This document shows positions 50,987-56,762 of a DNA stretch of 64,000 bases, one piece after another (positions within the stretch are counted from its first letter, which is position 1; each line of letters starts with the position of its first letter). Location of the stretch: positions 1 through 64,000 of the forward strand of contig JAFQWA010000013.1 of the NCBI GenBank assembly GCA_017407705.1, given 5' to 3'. Origin of the DNA: Clostridia bacterium. GTDB taxonomy: Bacteria > Bacillota > Clostridia > Oscillospirales > Acutalibacteraceae. The position numbers were made by a program, and so were the translations under genes. The notes beneath the pieces were generated by a model, which did no database searches, was not told where the DNA came from, and saw only the letters and a program-made list of their open reading frames with translations.

Positions 50987-52216
50987 TTAACCCGTAAACT
51001 TGTTTATTTCATCGTAAGCTAAGTTTACCCATCTTCCCATTCTTGTGGGATCATTTTCAACAGTATGGGTATCCTTCATAACAAACTCAACCACGCAACC
51101 CTTAGTCTTATTAAGTGTGGTGCTGATCTCTTTTCTCAGCTCTTTTTCGTCAAAACCAACACAAAGCGGTGACGGATTAGGCTTACGACTGATGATGTAA
51201 TTATTCTTAAGCTTATCAGCGCAGATATCCACATCACACCAGGGTGAAACAGAAAATCTTCTCATTCTTGGAATGGTGAGCAAATCGTCTAATCTATCGT
51301 GGATAGGCTCACAGCAACCGTAATGGTTAAGACCCGTAAGCTCCAAAACAGCTTTCTGATAGGGAAATATAAACTCACGGAACATATCCGGTGAAATACC
51401 CACCGTTTCCTGAGCCTCAGTAAAGCCCCATCTGTCCATAAGGGTGTATTTCTCACCCTCTGCTTTCAACGGCAGCTCAGTGGTATATGCCACACCGCCG
51501 GAACCGATATACTCATCACGGCAATTTGAGGTAAGCAAACCTTCCCTTTCAAAATATTTCAAGATATTTATCTGGTCATCACGCATAATCTCCATCATCT
51601 TATGCACTGCCTCAGGCTCATCATACATAAGATACATCAGCTCATCAAGACCAACTAAGAACATAGCCTCTTTGATCATACTGAAGGAGTTTTTCATACA
51701 AACTATTTTGGTGGGCAAAATATCACCAAAAATAGAATTTAAGCGGTCAAGGGTTTTGTAGGTGCCCTCACGGTCCACCTGAACGTCACGAATATGCATT
51801 TGATGAACCTGCTCAGCCAAGTTGGTAATAGGCGGGATCCAGGTGTAGCTATTACCCCACTCCTTACCGTATTTTATATTAACGGGGAATCCGTAGTCGC
51901 CGTAATGCACCTTCCACTCCAGCTGCAGCCAAGGCTCAAACACGTTATCATCACGGATATGGTCCCACCAGAAAATACGCTGACGCAAAATACGTTCCCA
52001 CAAGCGCAGCTCTTTATCCTCGCAAACCAGCTCATCCTCACGGACTATCTCGCCCCAAGAACCCTCAGGGAAACACAACACCAAAGGACGCTCAGCTTTA
52101 AGAGAGTTGAAATCGGTAAGAATTTTTTTCTTTTTATCCATTTCGGGATGTGCGGCAATTTCAGCCACACGGGTAGCCAACTGTCTTAAAATTTCTCTTT
52201 CCTTGGTTGTAGCCAT
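50987..52216 (-). CDS. Uroporphyrinogen decarboxylase (URO-D) family protein
   Basis: 409 residues from ATG at 52216, preceded by AAGGTGGGG. The fold is seen as a TIM barrel: EAMFLVGLDELMYLMYDEPE, MEIMRDDQINILKYFEREG, NHYGCCEPIHDRLDDLLTIPR and ISRKPNPSPLCVGFDEKEL. Not the heme enzyme itself: the conserved N-terminal RQAGR motif is lacking. These stand-alone proteins are frequent in gut Clostridia and related to corrinoid or methyltransferase-type URO-D domains (CmuA/MtaA/Mta-like), but no corrinoid protein is adjacent. Substrate unknown. Confidence 0.8.
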   Translation of the reverse strand: MATTKEREILRQLATRVAEIAAHPEMDKKKKILTDFNSLKAERPLVLCFPEGSWGEIVREDELVCEDKELRLWERILRQRIFWWDHIRDDNVFEPWLQLEWKVHYGDYGFPVNIKYGKEWGNSYTWIPPITNLAEQVHQMHIRDVQVDREGTYKTLDRLNSIFGDILPTKIVCMKNSFSMIKEAMFLVGLDELMYLMYDEPEAVHKMMEIMRDDQINILKYFEREGLLTSNCRDEYIGSGGVAYTTELPLKAEGEKYTLMDRWGFTEAQETVGISPDMFREFIFPYQKAVLELTGLNHYGCCEPIHDRLDDLLTIPRMRRFSVSPWCDVDICADKLKNNYIISRKPNPSPLCVGFDEKELRKEISTTLNKTKGCVVEFVMKDTHTVENDPTRMGRWVNLAYDEINKFTG

Positions 52217-52273
52217 ATATATCCCCACCTTCTACCTAAATTATAAAATTGCAGTAAAACGTTTTATATAATT

Positions 52274-52386: not shown

Positions 52387-52414
52387 TTGCAATCTTTAAT
52401 TTTTCTGCTATAAT
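52387..52414 (+). promoter_or_regulatory. Promoter of the corA leader transcript
   Basis: TTGCAA (52387-52392), 16-nt spacer, perfect TATAAT (52409-52414). Transcription would start near 52421, giving a leader of about 140 nt before the ATG at 52562. Confidence 0.6.
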
Positions 52415-52439
52415 ACTACTGTGACAAATTATTTTTAAA

Positions 52440-52555
52440 GGCAGGTGGATATAACTTGAGTTCCGAACCTTGTAAACCTCGAGGTAGTCAGTACAATTTA
52501 AAATCAAGCGGGCTGCAGTTATATCCCGTATATTTCTGCGCCCTCTAGAAGGGGG
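52440..52555 (+). ncRNA. Structured leader RNA upstream of corA, candidate riboswitch
   Basis: Nested pairings: outer GGCAG (52440-52444) with CTGCgC (52536-52541); a 10-bp perfect helix GGATATAACT (52447-52456) with AGTTATATCC (52517-52526); inside it TTGTA (52470-52474) with TACAA (52492-52496) enclosing the palindrome ACCTCGAGGT (52476-52485). The 3' end, CCCTCT-AGA-AGGGGG (52541-52555), folds the Shine-Dalgarno into a stem that shares its first C with the outer helix. No match to the M-box, the known Mg2+ riboswitch, as I recall it. Identity unknown. Confidence 0.6.
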
Positions 52556-52561
52556 ATTTCT

Positions 52562-53500
52562 ATGATTTCTTTTTACAAAACCCTGAACAACTGCATTTGC
52601 CAGATCGATGAATACGAAGCAGGTTGCTGGATCAATGTAATGGCTCCCGATAAGGACGAAATTGCAGTTTTGCAGGAGAAATTCGGCGTTGAAGCCGAGT
52701 ATATCCGCTCATCATTGGATGAAGAGGAATCTTCACATATTGAAAGTGAAGACGGTAATACTTTCTTGATATTTGACGTTCCCTGCGTTGAGAAAGACGG
52801 AGAGAACATCGTTTATAACACTATGCCTGTGGGTGTTGTGGTGACTGCGTCTAACGTTATCACCATTTCGCTCAGCGATAATCCGGTTATTATGGATTTT
52901 GTTCAGGGCGTTGTTAAAAACGTGCAGACCGCACATAAAACTCAGTTTGTGCTTATGCTGTTGTTCCGCATGGCAACAAGATTTTTGCAGTATCTGAAAC
53001 AGATCGACAGGCACTCACGTTATCTGGAAAGCAATCTGAGAAAGTCTATGAAAAATAAGGGTCTTGTTCAGCTTTTGGACTTGGAAAAATCACTGGTTTA
53101 TTTCCAGACCTCACTAAAGTCTAACGAAATGACCACTGAGAAGATTCTGCGTGGCAGATACTTAAAGCTTTACGATGAAGATCAGGAGCTGCTGGAGGAC
53201 GTTTTGATCGAATTGAAACAGGCTATTGAGATGTCTAACATTTATTCATCTATTCTCTCAGGCACTATGGACGCTTTCTCATCGGTTATTTCTAACAACC
53301 TGAACGTGGTTATGAAGGTGCTTACCTCGCTGACTGTTTTGATGGCAATACCCACTATGATATTCAGCTTTTACGGTATGAACATCGGCTCAAACACAGG
53401 TTTGCCTTTAGCGCAGAATATGCTGTTCCCGTCTATTGTTACAGTGGTTCTTACCGCCACAGTGGGACTTATACTTTACAAAAAAGATATGTTTAAATAA
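52562..53500 (+). CDS. corA: CorA-family divalent cation channel
   Basis: 312 residues: large cytosolic domain with helices (about 1-250), then two membrane spans at about 253-273 and 286-305. The signature YGMN is at the end of the first span (FSFYGMNIG), the Mg2+ selectivity filter. Transports Mg2+, or Co2+/Ni2+ in some members; Zn2+ exporter relatives (ZntB) lack nothing visible that would separate them. RBS AAGGGGG is covered by a hairpin in its leader. Monocistronic. Confidence 0.9.
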   Translation: MISFYKTLNNCICQIDEYEAGCWINVMAPDKDEIAVLQEKFGVEAEYIRSSLDEEESSHIESEDGNTFLIFDVPCVEKDGENIVYNTMPVGVVVTASNVITISLSDNPVIMDFVQGVVKNVQTAHKTQFVLMLLFRMATRFLQYLKQIDRHSRYLESNLRKSMKNKGLVQLLDLEKSLVYFQTSLKSNEMTTEKILRGRYLKLYDEDQELLEDVLIELKQAIEMSNIYSSILSGTMDAFSSVISNNLNVVMKVLTSLTVLMAIPTMIFSFYGMNIGSNTGLPLAQNMLFPSIVTVVLTATVGLILYKKDMFK

Positions 53501-53530
53501 AAACAAGCCGTTCAGATGAACGGCTTGTTT
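53501..53530. terminator. Bidirectional terminator corA / nadC
   Basis: AAACAAGCCGTTC (53501-53513) and GAACGGCTTGTTT (53518-53530), 13-bp perfect stem with AGAT loop, T-rich on both strands. Confidence 0.92.
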
Positions 53531-54367
53531 TTATTTAATCTTCATTGAAATATCAAATGCTTTAACAGAATGTGTAAGTGCGCCGATAGAGATTATATCA
53601 ACACCGGTTTTTGCTACCTCAATAATAGTTTCGTCGGTGATGTTGCCCGATGCCTCTAAAAGTGCCTTGCCCTTGTTCATTTCAACAGCCTTTGCCATTG
53701 TCTGAACGTCCATATTATCCAGCATAATTACGTCTGCATTGGCGCTTAACGCTTCCTCTACCTCTTTAAGGTTACGGGTTTCAACCTCGATCTTAACCAT
53801 ATGACCGATTTTCTCACGAAGCAGCTCTACAGCCTTTGTAATACTTCCTGCCGCATCAATATGATTGTCTTTTAGCATAGCCGCATCGGAAAGGTTGTAT
53901 CTGTGATTCTTGCCGCCGCCCACTGTAACGGCATACTTCTGTATAGGACGAAGTCCCGGCAAGGTCTTTCTTGTATCAGCAACGGTAGCGTTGGTGCCTT
54001 TGATAAGCTCCACTGCGTGATTGGTTGCGGTGGCAACACCTGACATATGCTGCAACAAGTTAAGGGCTGTACGCTCACCTTTAAGCAACAAACGGGTGTG
54101 TCCCTTCAAGGTTGCTATAACGTCACCTTTTTTAAGCTTATCACCGTCTTTTTTAAAGCACTGTGCTGTGAAATCATCATCCAGCATCTGGAATACTTTA
54201 AGGGCAATATCAAGTCCGCACAGCACACCGTCTGCCTTGGCAAGGAAGGTGGCTTCAGACATCTGATCCTCACTGATAACCAGATCAGCAGAGGTGTCAA
54301 TATAATTTATATCCTCAAGTAATGCGGTTTTAATAAGCTCTTCAACGTAAAATTTGTTTAAAATCAT
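53531..54367 (-). CDS. nadC: Nicotinate-nucleotide diphosphorylase (carboxylating)
   Basis: Quinolinate + PRPP to nicotinate mononucleotide, third step of de novo NAD synthesis. 278 residues from ATG at 54367 (MILNKFYVEELI), preceded by GAGAGGAG and overlapping the nadB stop as ATGA; 20 further in-frame codons upstream lie within nadB. Motifs: ERTALNLLQHMSGVAT, DTRKTLPGLRPIQKYAV, KDNHI, IEVETRNLKE, IMLDNMD and LEASGNIT. Confidence 0.95.
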   Translation of the reverse strand: MILNKFYVEELIKTALLEDINYIDTSADLVISEDQMSEATFLAKADGVLCGLDIALKVFQMLDDDFTAQCFKKDGDKLKKGDVIATLKGHTRLLLKGERTALNLLQHMSGVATATNHAVELIKGTNATVADTRKTLPGLRPIQKYAVTVGGGKNHRYNLSDAAMLKDNHIDAAGSITKAVELLREKIGHMVKIEVETRNLKEVEEALSANADVIMLDNMDVQTMAKAVEMNKGKALLEASGNITDETIIEVAKTGVDIISIGALTHSVKAFDISMKIK

Positions 54368-55833
54368 CGGTTTATAGCTCCTCTCAAAATAAGTGCGGCA
54401 ACGGTTGCCAAACTTTTTGCCTCGCAATAATCAACGGTTTTCTTGAAATAGCTGTTATTTAGTCGGGAACGGATCTGCTCGATAACCTTAAGCCCCTTCT
54501 CAGCGGCCGCCTGATCCGGCAACACAAAATGTGACTTTTGCATTATCTCACGTATCTGTGTCCTGATACCCTCGGGCAACGGTGCAGTGCCGTCCACAAT
54601 TTTAGGTGGTGTTCCGTGGACCGCTACGAAATTGGGGTGATGTATTTTTCGGTTTATCTCATCTGCCGCTCTACGGGAGAATACCAACGCCTCCAACAAC
54701 GAGTTAGATGCCAGTCGGTTTTTACCGTGGACCCCTGTATTGGCACACTCACCCACTGCATACAGTCGGTCAATACCTGTGTAGCCGTTTTCATCCACCT
54801 GAATTCCGCCCATAAGATAATGATGACATGGGAAAATGGGAATAGGCTCTTTGGTAAGGTCAACGCCCTCATTAAGGCATCTTTCATATATCATGGGAAA
54901 ACGGTTTTTAAGAAAATCAGCATCAAGACGGGAAATATCAAGATAAAATTTATCACTGCCGGTACGTCGGTACTCCATCATAATTGAGTGGGAAACCTTA
55001 TCTCTGGGTGCTAACTCCAGACGCTCATCATACAAGTGCATAAACCGCTCAAAATTGCAGTTCAGCAAATATGCACCTTCACCACGCACCGCTTCACTGA
55101 TCAAAAAACGCTCTCTATCCTCACCTGCCGCAAAAGCAGTGGGATGAAACTGGATGTAGTCAAGATCCTTGATCTGAGCACCAAGCTCGTAGGCAAATCT
55201 GATACCGTCACCGGTGGCAATAGACGAGTTGGTGGTGTATTTATAAACTCTGCCCACACCACCCGTTGCCAAAACAACAAAGGATGCCGACACAGTTTTA
55301 AGCTGCTTATTATCCAGCATTTCCACAAAAAATCCGCTTTCACCACGGGTTATCTGCACACAGGCAACATTCTCTGCCAGCTCAACGTTTTCAAGCTCAC
55401 TTACCCTTTGCAGCATAACAGTGGTAATGGCATCACCGGTGGAATCCTTGTGGTGCACTATTCTATGACGGCTATGGCCACCCTCTAAGGTCATACTAAG
55501 GCTTCCGTCGGGCTTTTTGTCAAAGTCAACCCCCAACTCACACAGCTTACGGACGTCATCGGGACCTTCCTCTACCAAAGTACGGACTGTTTTAGGGTTG
55601 TTTATCTGTCCGCCTGCTATTAAGGTATCGTTAAAATGATAGTCAAAATTATCGTTTTTCTCATCCAAAACAGCGGCAACACCGCCCTGAGCCAAGGAAC
55701 TGTTAGACAGCTTGAATTTTGACTTTGAGCAGACCAGCACTCGCAGATCTTTATCTAAATTATATGCTGCATAAAGTCCCGAAAGGCCTGTTCCGAGAAT
55801 CACAACATCATAATTATCCTTGCTGATTGCCAT
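54364..55833 (-). CDS. nadB: L-aspartate oxidase
   Basis: FAD enzyme making iminoaspartate for quinolinate synthase; under anoxia it can use fumarate. 489 residues. FAD motif ILGTGLSGLYAAY (about 11-23), SSLAQGGVAAVLD, GHSRHRIVHHKD, IQFHPTAFAAG, CHHYLMGGI, and GECANTGVHGKNRLASNS at the C-terminal flavin site. RBS GGAG. Middle gene of nadA-nadB-nadC. Confidence 0.95.
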   Translation of the reverse strand: MAISKDNYDVVILGTGLSGLYAAYNLDKDLRVLVCSKSKFKLSNSSLAQGGVAAVLDEKNDNFDYHFNDTLIAGGQINNPKTVRTLVEEGPDDVRKLCELGVDFDKKPDGSLSMTLEGGHSRHRIVHHKDSTGDAITTVMLQRVSELENVELAENVACVQITRGESGFFVEMLDNKQLKTVSASFVVLATGGVGRVYKYTTNSSIATGDGIRFAYELGAQIKDLDYIQFHPTAFAAGEDRERFLISEAVRGEGAYLLNCNFERFMHLYDERLELAPRDKVSHSIMMEYRRTGSDKFYLDISRLDADFLKNRFPMIYERCLNEGVDLTKEPIPIFPCHHYLMGGIQVDENGYTGIDRLYAVGECANTGVHGKNRLASNSLLEALVFSRRAADEINRKIHHPNFVAVHGTPPKIVDGTAPLPEGIRTQIREIMQKSHFVLPDQAAAEKGLKVIEQIRSRLNNSYFKKTVDYCEAKSLATVAALILRGAINR

Positions 55834-55844
55834 AATAGCATCTC

Positions 55845-56762
55845 CTAATTTCCGTAATATAACATATTATCAATAGACTTTTTAGCCGCAACTCTCAGTT
55901 GTTCACTGAGCTCTATATCACAGCCACCGTTACCGCAGATAGCATCATATACTCCCTGCAGAGTGGTAAGCTTCATATTGGTGCAGGTAAGCTTGTCCTT
56001 GCAAAGCTGATATACCTTCTTATCGGGGTGTTTATATTTTATGTAATCGCAAACGCCACGCTCTGTGCCGATAATCACCGGCTCATCAGTAGCCATTGTG
56101 TATTCGATAATACCACTGGTTGCACCGATATAGTCAGCATACTGTAACGCCTCAGGACGGCACTCAGGGTGCATAGCCAGTTTTGCATCGGGGTGCTGAT
56201 TTTTTGCTGCCAACACGTCTTCAGCAGTTATCTGATGGTGCACAGGGCAACAGCCGTTCATAAGATAGATGTTTTTATCCGGCAGCTGCTTTGCCACAAA
56301 TGAACCTAAGTTAGGATCGGGAATAAATAAAATATCCTTTGCAGGTAGCTTTGATACTATCTTAACTGCACTGGAGGAGGTGACGCACACGTCACACACC
56401 GATTTAAGCTCTGCTGTGGTGTTGATATACGCTACCACTGTGTGATCGGGGTGCTCCTTACGGTACTGCTCTATCTGACTTTTTTGCAGCTGCACCGCCA
56501 TAGGACAGGTAGCATCGGCATCAGAAAGAATAACTCTTTTTTCGGGGGATAATATCTTAACGGTTTCTGCCATAAATCTGACACCGCACATTAAAACTGT
56601 ATCCGATTGGAGTTTGGTAGCCGCAACAGACAAAGCAAAAGAATCACCGGTAATATCTGCAATATCAATAATTTCAGGCGCTTGATAGGTATGAGCAAGA
56701 ATACTGATATTCCGCTGTTTTTTCTCTTTTAAAATCGCCTCAATCAGCTGATCTTTTGTCAT
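55845..56762 (-). CDS. nadA: Quinolinate synthase
   Basis: 4Fe-4S enzyme condensing iminoaspartate and dihydroxyacetone phosphate to quinolinate. 305 residues, compact type. Cluster cysteines by alignment: C86 in DATCPMAV, C171/C172 in GCCPVHHQ, and C260 in LTCTNMKLTTL. ILAHTYQAPEI and GDSFALS are N-terminal marks. RBS GGAGGA. First gene of the nad operon. Confidence 0.95.
   Translation of the reverse strand: MTKDQLIEAILKEKKQRNISILAHTYQAPEIIDIADITGDSFALSVAATKLQSDTVLMCGVRFMAETVKILSPEKRVILSDADATCPMAVQLQKSQIEQYRKEHPDHTVVAYINTTAELKSVCDVCVTSSSAVKIVSKLPAKDILFIPDPNLGSFVAKQLPDKNIYLMNGCCPVHHQITAEDVLAAKNQHPDAKLAMHPECRPEALQYADYIGATSGIIEYTMATDEPVIIGTERGVCDYIKYKHPDKKVYQLCKDKLTCTNMKLTTLQGVYDAICGNGGCDIELSEQLRVAAKKSIDNMLYYGN

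Follow-up and report, generated by a model that had tools for sequence, protein, structure and literature searches.

A probable translation-sensing attenuator in the leader of a Clostridia corA gene

The leader of a corA gene from a Clostridia bacterium is, in our judgement, probably an attenuator that senses translation in the manner of MgtL and mgtQ, combining a leader peptide gene with a bistable RNA. We have little doubt that a regulatory leader peptide exists; that it operates a switch freeing the corA Shine-Dalgarno sequence (SD) is suggested by modelling and seems very likely; and that Mg2+ is sensed through destabilisation of the ribosome is, by analogy with MgtL, a reasonable expectation. 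The analysis yielded a family of ORFs with a shared motif and a link to corA, three mutually exclusive helices and a computed effect of ribosome position, and we infer translation in vivo, drop-off or pausing of the ribosome at the motif, Mg2+ as the signal and the direction of regulation. Such an attenuator is apparently undescribed in Clostridia: a literature search, with most subscription journals and preprints outside its scope, returned no description of such leaders from that class. The window (the whole stretch of DNA that was analysed, 64,000 nucleotides) contains the following features at this locus:

52387-52414, plus strand: promoter, with a -35 element TTGCAA, a 16-nt spacer and a -10 element TATAAT (52409-52414) preceded by TG (10/12 matches)
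52443-52448, plus strand: SD of the leader ORF, AGGTGG, 7 nt before the TTG start and conserved in homologues
52447-52456, plus strand: arm 1, which forms the 5' side of helix 1:2 and takes in the end of that SD, the spacer and base 1 of the leader TTG
52456-52548, plus strand: leader ORF of 30 codons plus stop (MSSEPCKPRGSQYNLKSSGLQLYPVYFCAL), with a TTG start and a TAG stop (52546-52548); homologous ORFs precede corA in relatives
52462-52470, plus strand: codons 3-5 of the leader ORF, Ser-Glu-Pro, corresponding in the host to the conserved family motif [P/S/A]-[D/E]-P (Pro-Asp-Pro in MgtL)
52480-52482, plus strand: CGA, a rare arginine codon, codon 9 of the leader ORF, recurring at codons 7-12 in homologues
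52510-52526, plus strand: arm 2, of which 52517-52526 pairs with arm 1 or, alternatively, 52510-52518 (GGGCTGCAG) pairs with arm 3
52536-52546, plus strand: arm 3 (CTGCGCCC), which pairs with arm 2 in helix 2:3, with CCCTCT, its 3' part, serving as anti-SD in helix 3:4
52549-52555, plus strand: arm 4, the corA SD (AAGGGGG), the partner of arm 3 in the SD hairpin
52562-53500, plus strand: corA, encoding a CorA-family divalent-cation channel of 312 amino acids (Pfam CorA, 187.5 bits)
53494-53537, bidirectional: strong terminator after corA, shared with a convergent run of NAD biosynthesis genes

Refolding of this region agreed with the structure that an initial annotation had drawn from the sequence. 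The leader was proposed to be about 140 nt long, and the -10 box does place the expected transcript start near 52420; an element similar to the window promoter (TTGCAATC...TATAAT) precedes many related leaders. The perfect 10-bp helix (GGATATAACT, 52447-52456, with AGTTATATCC, 52517-52526), the inner stem, the outer helix (which folds as 52441-52445 with 52535-52539) and the hairpin in which CCCTCT (52541-52546) pairs with AGGGGG (52550-52555), so hiding the corA ribosome-binding site, were all recovered. Of dinucleotide shuffles of the window leader, 0.6% contained a perfect helix of 10 bp or longer. The total folding energy is unexceptional (z of -0.7 for 52420-52580 and -1.3 for 52436-52562), and folding of the window alone is for that reason weak evidence.

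What that annotation had omitted is the 30-codon ORF with its own SD. The 10-bp helix spans the start of this ORF (TTG, 52456), its TAG stop codon lies in the loop of the corA SD hairpin, and a further pairing, helix 2:3, can form between 52510-52518 and 52536-52543. As far as sequence can tell, the leader resembles MgtL-type systems in having a short ORF that could be translated from an SD of its own, ahead of a putative Mg2+ transporter gene. Acidic and proline residues are likewise present at codons 2-5, where the S-E-P of the window is a weak form: its motif (SSEP, in an ORF that starts with TTG) has a single acidic residue and a single proline and is weaker than the EPDP of MgtL.

A DNA similarity search with the window leader retrieved only one clear homologue, as the RNA arms and the C-terminal part of the peptide diverge, and a search of viral contigs gave no match. 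Loci of relatives were collected by the CorA protein instead of the leader DNA. Comparison of their corA leaders identified a short ORF, and not RNA sequence, as the common feature, with peptides that begin MNPEPSIPRSSRLN..., MSADPGNPRSRK..., MKPDPLSR..., MSPDPGSHR... and MNPDPCGRK.... We scanned 148 corA upstream regions, mostly from the host's taxonomic family, for an SD followed by a start codon, any residue, [PSATE], [DE] and P. An SD-preceded M-x-[PSATE]-[DE]-P ORF was present in 90 of the 148, compared with 0 of 1480 dinucleotide shuffles and none of the reverse-complement controls, where the expression had been composed after the first sequences were seen, so that the shuffles gauge its frequency and not its choice. 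The same type of ORF was found in 22 of 50 corA regions from the wider order and class of Clostridia, a set that is mostly new, comes from other families and is closer to an independent test. About 40% of the corA regions examined in the strict scan had no such leader.

The strict set comprises 89 unique leaders in which codons 3-5 encode [PSA]-[DE]-P. Entropy at codons 4 and 5 is zero for the first two codon positions and about 1 bit for the third; the fixed residues are partly set by the search expression, and the free third positions are not. This pattern is what would be expected of a motif under selection at the level of the protein. Neither the start codon nor residue 2 is constant, and the peptides are unrelated in their C-terminal halves. 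Forms with two acidic residues (MDADP and MDSDP) occur elsewhere in the class. A more stringent pattern (GGAGGTG, 3-8 nt, RTG, x-P-D-P), run against 300 whole genomes of the host's taxonomic family, gave 27 matches, all 27 of them no more than 250 nt upstream of corA and on the same strand, and its reversed control gave none in the same genomes. At the level of the phylum this pattern matched five times, twice before corA (once in another family). The remaining three phylum-level matches (L206-L208) had no corA downstream and were taken as chance.

A second mark of these leaders is the codon CGA, which is found at codons 7-12 in 54 of the 89 strict leaders. Across leader codons 6-15, CGA accounts for 59 of 118 arginine codons; the corA genes of these loci have 17 of 332 (p = 1e-25), and the later arginine codons of the leaders 18 of 164. 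Beyond the SD, nucleotide-level conservation was noticed only in CGA(AG), which is nearly always an in-frame codon. In the leaders it often occurs as CGA-AGT-AG, after the PDP-type motif. CGA is read by inosine wobble of the arginine tRNA with anticodon ICG. In the host the tRNA-Arg anticodons found were ACG, CCG, TCT and CCT, with none of type TCG among the 30 of 32 tRNA loci that were scanned, and CGA is for this reason presumably slow there. The E. coli mgtL leader (L211) reads ATG GAA CCT GAT CCC ACG CCT CTC CCT CGA CGG AGA, with EPDP followed by CGA at codon 10; the marks common to the Clostridia leaders and mgtL (the latter taken from E. coli alone) therefore stand in identical order, an early motif and then CGA. 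That CGA is common to both is a hint that codon speed belongs to the sensor.

Pairing was compared in 62 unique leaders that end before corA. The leader SD and start region pairs with the 3' part of the leader (mean z of -2.8, with p<0.05 in 47 of the 62), and native arm partners reach -19.2 kcal/mol against -13.2 for partners swapped between species (p about 1e-11), where the leaders are mutually related and the p-values for pairing overstate independence. Several types of base pair are seen at each of positions -9 to -1 of helix 1:2, in a table that was fitted to the duplex and is illustrative. Conservation of helix 1:2 through compensatory change is strong evidence that the fold is real, and the initial proposal of a cis-regulatory corA leader is borne out by a leader that is conserved and covaries. 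Helix 2:3, between the 3' part of the leader and the anti-SD arm, also pairs better with native than with swapped partners (p = 3e-5, with the same overstatement), and in 29 of 33 leaders it overlaps, and so excludes, both helix 1:2 and the SD hairpin.

The consequences of ribosome position were computed for 46 leaders with a short 3' end, with the ribosome modelled as a mask. The mean cost of opening the corA SD was 5.85 kcal/mol in free RNA; placing a ribosome at the leader start brought it to 3.51, and placing one over arm 2 gave 5.97. Leaders with shuffled interiors gave 5.48, 5.56 and 5.77 kcal/mol in the same three states (p = 4e-7 and 3e-9, values that again overstate independence because the leaders are related). 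A ribosome at the leader start thus lowers the opening cost by 2.3 kcal/mol, and by 0 in the controls. The window follows the family trend at the leader start, with costs of 3.9, 2.2 and 5.0 kcal/mol (free, leader start, over arm 2), a modest modelled release. With a ribosome at codon 9 its cost is 4.5 kcal/mol, off the family trend; in window RNA with 38 nt of corA, simple 5' truncation left the corA SD paired. The effect on SD release is clear only across the leader family, and it needs the leader-start mask and a short 3' end. The computation suggests that ribosome position would choose between alternative RNA folds, as it does in MgtL-type leaders.

Not all leaders have room for such a switch. 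Among 104 unique leaders, 33 cross the corA start out of frame, and most of these begin only about 60 nt before it. Most are too short for the three-helix fold and retain the motif, and the sequences of the RNA arms vary between species. Because the overlapping leaders keep the motif without room for the switch, the peptide, and not the fold, is the constant part. In these leaders full translation would be expected to interfere directly with initiation at corA, and early abortion would relieve that interference.

These observations can be assembled into a mechanism. In undisturbed RNA, helix 1:2 (leader start with leader end) would permit the SD hairpin 3:4 to form, and corA would be off. A ribosome that falters on the first codons (x-[P/S/A]-[D/E]-P, probably with a slow CGA further on) would hold arm 1 open, so that arm 2 could capture the anti-SD arm (arm 3) and free the corA SD. 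Translation of the whole leader would carry the ribosome past arm 2 to a stop inside the SD hairpin, helices 1:2 and 3:4 would re-form, and corA would again be off. The signal would most likely be low cytosolic Mg2+, which would destabilise ribosomes on early acidic and proline-containing nascent chains, as in MgtL.

The leader would in this way join an MgtL-like peptide to an mgtQ-like RNA switch. In E. coli, ribosomes translating MgtL are lost at EPDP in low Mg2+ (PMC11282234). The mgtL leader of mgtA (E. coli and Salmonella) resembles the Clostridia leaders in being a short ORF before an Mg2+ importer, in its acidic/proline motif at codons 2-5 (MEPDP), in its CGA at codon 10 with a PR.RL-like continuation that is also seen in close relatives of the window (MNPEPSIPRSSRLN), and in alternative RNA folds of which one hides the leader's own SD. 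The Clostridia leader differs in belonging to another phylum and in preceding a CorA channel, whereas mgtL precedes a P-type ATPase; its apparent output is a freed corA SD, whereas that of mgtL is transcription termination; and its motif usually has one acidic residue (two in MDADP/MDSDP). In Salmonella mgtQ, between mgtC and mgtB, acidic codons near the start make the ribosome falter, and arms that otherwise form 1:2 and 3:4 then form helix 2:3, which frees the RBS of the Mg2+ transporter gene mgtB from helix 3:4 (PMC8092293). Unlike the Clostridia ORF, which has about 20-35 codons, lies at the 5' end and carries a conserved PDP-type motif, mgtQ has 8 codons and lies within an operon, and its Pro4 is dispensable as an amino acid (PMC8092293).

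For E. coli corA, an inverse relation has been described between its expression and the translation of corL in its leader (PMC11552253). This 'corA motif' leader likewise has an upstream ORF within a folded corA leader, with a stem that hides the SD of that ORF, but the motif has been reported only in Gammaproteobacteria (PMC6429828), and the corL N-terminus has one proline and fewer acidic residues (PMC11552253). No Rfam 15 family matched the window. The M-box (ykoK, RF00380) also controls Mg2+ transport genes in cis in Bacillota, but neither the window nor the host genome gave a match to it.

A leader peptide switch of the same build might instead sense a cue other than Mg2+, such as charged tRNA-Pro or tRNA-Arg, EF-P activity or a general slowing of elongation, which we consider unlikely. 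Pro5 is invariant (by construction of the set), Pro3 occurs in 74 of the 89 strict leaders and the enrichment of CGA lies at codons 7-12, all in keeping with such a cue, and Salmonella mgtP, a classical attenuator that responds to tRNA-Pro, is a precedent (PMC8092293). However, the prolines are few and do not form a run, leaders that border the strict set have lost the early proline yet keep Asp or Glu (MSNDSIPR, MSTEAIPR, MSSDSSKP), and the target gene encodes a divalent-cation channel.

Control might also be exerted on transcription (by intrinsic or Rho-dependent attenuation) and not on the corA SD. CCCTCTAGAAGGGGG followed by ATTTCTAT passes a loose scan for terminators, and Rho is involved at the E. 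coli corA leader (PMC11552253), but the stem has 6 bp and a poor T tract, relatives generally have no T run after the hairpin, and the hairpin itself contains the corA SD; we regard this as improbable. Positive translational coupling, in which completion of the leader delivers ribosomes that turn corA on and abortion turns it off, would account well for a leader stop codon (52546-52548) directly before the corA SD (52549-52555) and for the many leaders that end less than 30 nt from corA. In the models, however, it is an early and not a late ribosome that frees the corA SD, and a ribosome at the leader stop would cover that SD itself; output of an importer would moreover drop when Mg2+ is short, and the corA-overlapping leaders end well beyond the corA start. 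Coupling of this sort is accordingly very improbable.

The initial annotation had suggested a possible metal-sensing riboswitch, of which the tie to divalent-cation homeostasis probably holds and the aptamer is not supported, since the shared element is a peptide motif, the arms vary and no conserved unpaired aptamer core was noticed. Its remark that the leader is unlike the M-box, NiCo and Mn riboswitches is supported by the lack of any Rfam metal-riboswitch match, even at a permissive threshold: a scan of the whole window at the gathering threshold placed no family in the leader, a scan of the leader at E up to 10 gave only a chance-level match to a plant microRNA, and a scan of 20 relatives, mostly without the leader, gave only a tRNA. 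A metal-binding riboswitch with the ORF as bystander or target has the slimmest chance of these readings, for although a covarying fold with an SD hairpin before a cation channel would suit it, and a small upstream ORF under M-box control in Mycobacterium is a reported example of such a hybrid (PMC12810186), no Rfam riboswitch matches, amino acids and not unpaired nucleotides are conserved, and corA-overlapping leaders retain the motif, mostly without the fold. The evidence favours sensing by the ribosome as it translates and by its nascent chain.

The host is a gut-type bacterium, and its genome encodes bL31, which in MgtL-type leaders acts against the loss of ribosomes at low Mg2+. Membership of the channel in the CorA family is assigned from Pfam (its NCBIfam corA equivalog score is below that model's cut-off), with Mg2+ as the putative substrate. 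Neither MgtE nor an M-box was found in the host genome (96% complete), which would fit a role for CorA as an important Mg2+ importer. Among 40 relatives an M-box was present in two (G001 and G013, at loci L210 and L209), in which no corA of this type was found at E 1e-60; this distribution suggests that the M-box and this corA leader may replace each other.

Several neighbouring and related loci were also noted. A 413-aa ORF on the minus strand (50987-52228), divergent from corA and adjoining its promoter, was matched by neither Pfam nor NCBIfam at E 0.001 and reads like a corrinoid methyltransferase of the uroporphyrinogen-decarboxylase type. The NAD biosynthesis run convergent with corA (53531-56762, minus strand) comprises nadC (Pfam QRPTase), a nadB-like flavoprotein gene and a likely nadA. 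In one genus with a distinct CorA-like gene (L172, L175, L176 and L177), a conserved ORF M[EV]PD[SA]..E.G.PPKRRIAE lies upstream, with a CGA-AGA near its end that recalls the MEPDPTPLPRRR of MgtL; a separate hairpin and then the start of the corA-like gene come after this ORF. In another genus (L165 and L166), a CorA-like gene is preceded by conserved sequence with a possible short ORF, MEPLPEPNATI, and, ahead of the start, a GTACG...CGTAC hairpin; neither locus had an Rfam match.

The experimental cases of magnesium sensing through a faltering ribosome come from enterobacteria. We hold as evenly balanced the broader proposal that nascent-chain Mg2+ sensors govern corA across Clostridia, MgtL-like by descent or by convergence, with a two-part code ([P/S/A]-[D/E]-P and then, 2-7 codons on, a slow, inosine-read CGA) setting ribosome fall-off and with two outputs, the SD-releasing switch and the overlap with the corA start. 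If this is true, such sensing would be widespread, independent RNA folds would have been built around one peptide motif, and dozens of natural variants would be available from which to read its rules. It would also fill a gap in genomes like that of the host, where neither M-box nor MgtE is found.
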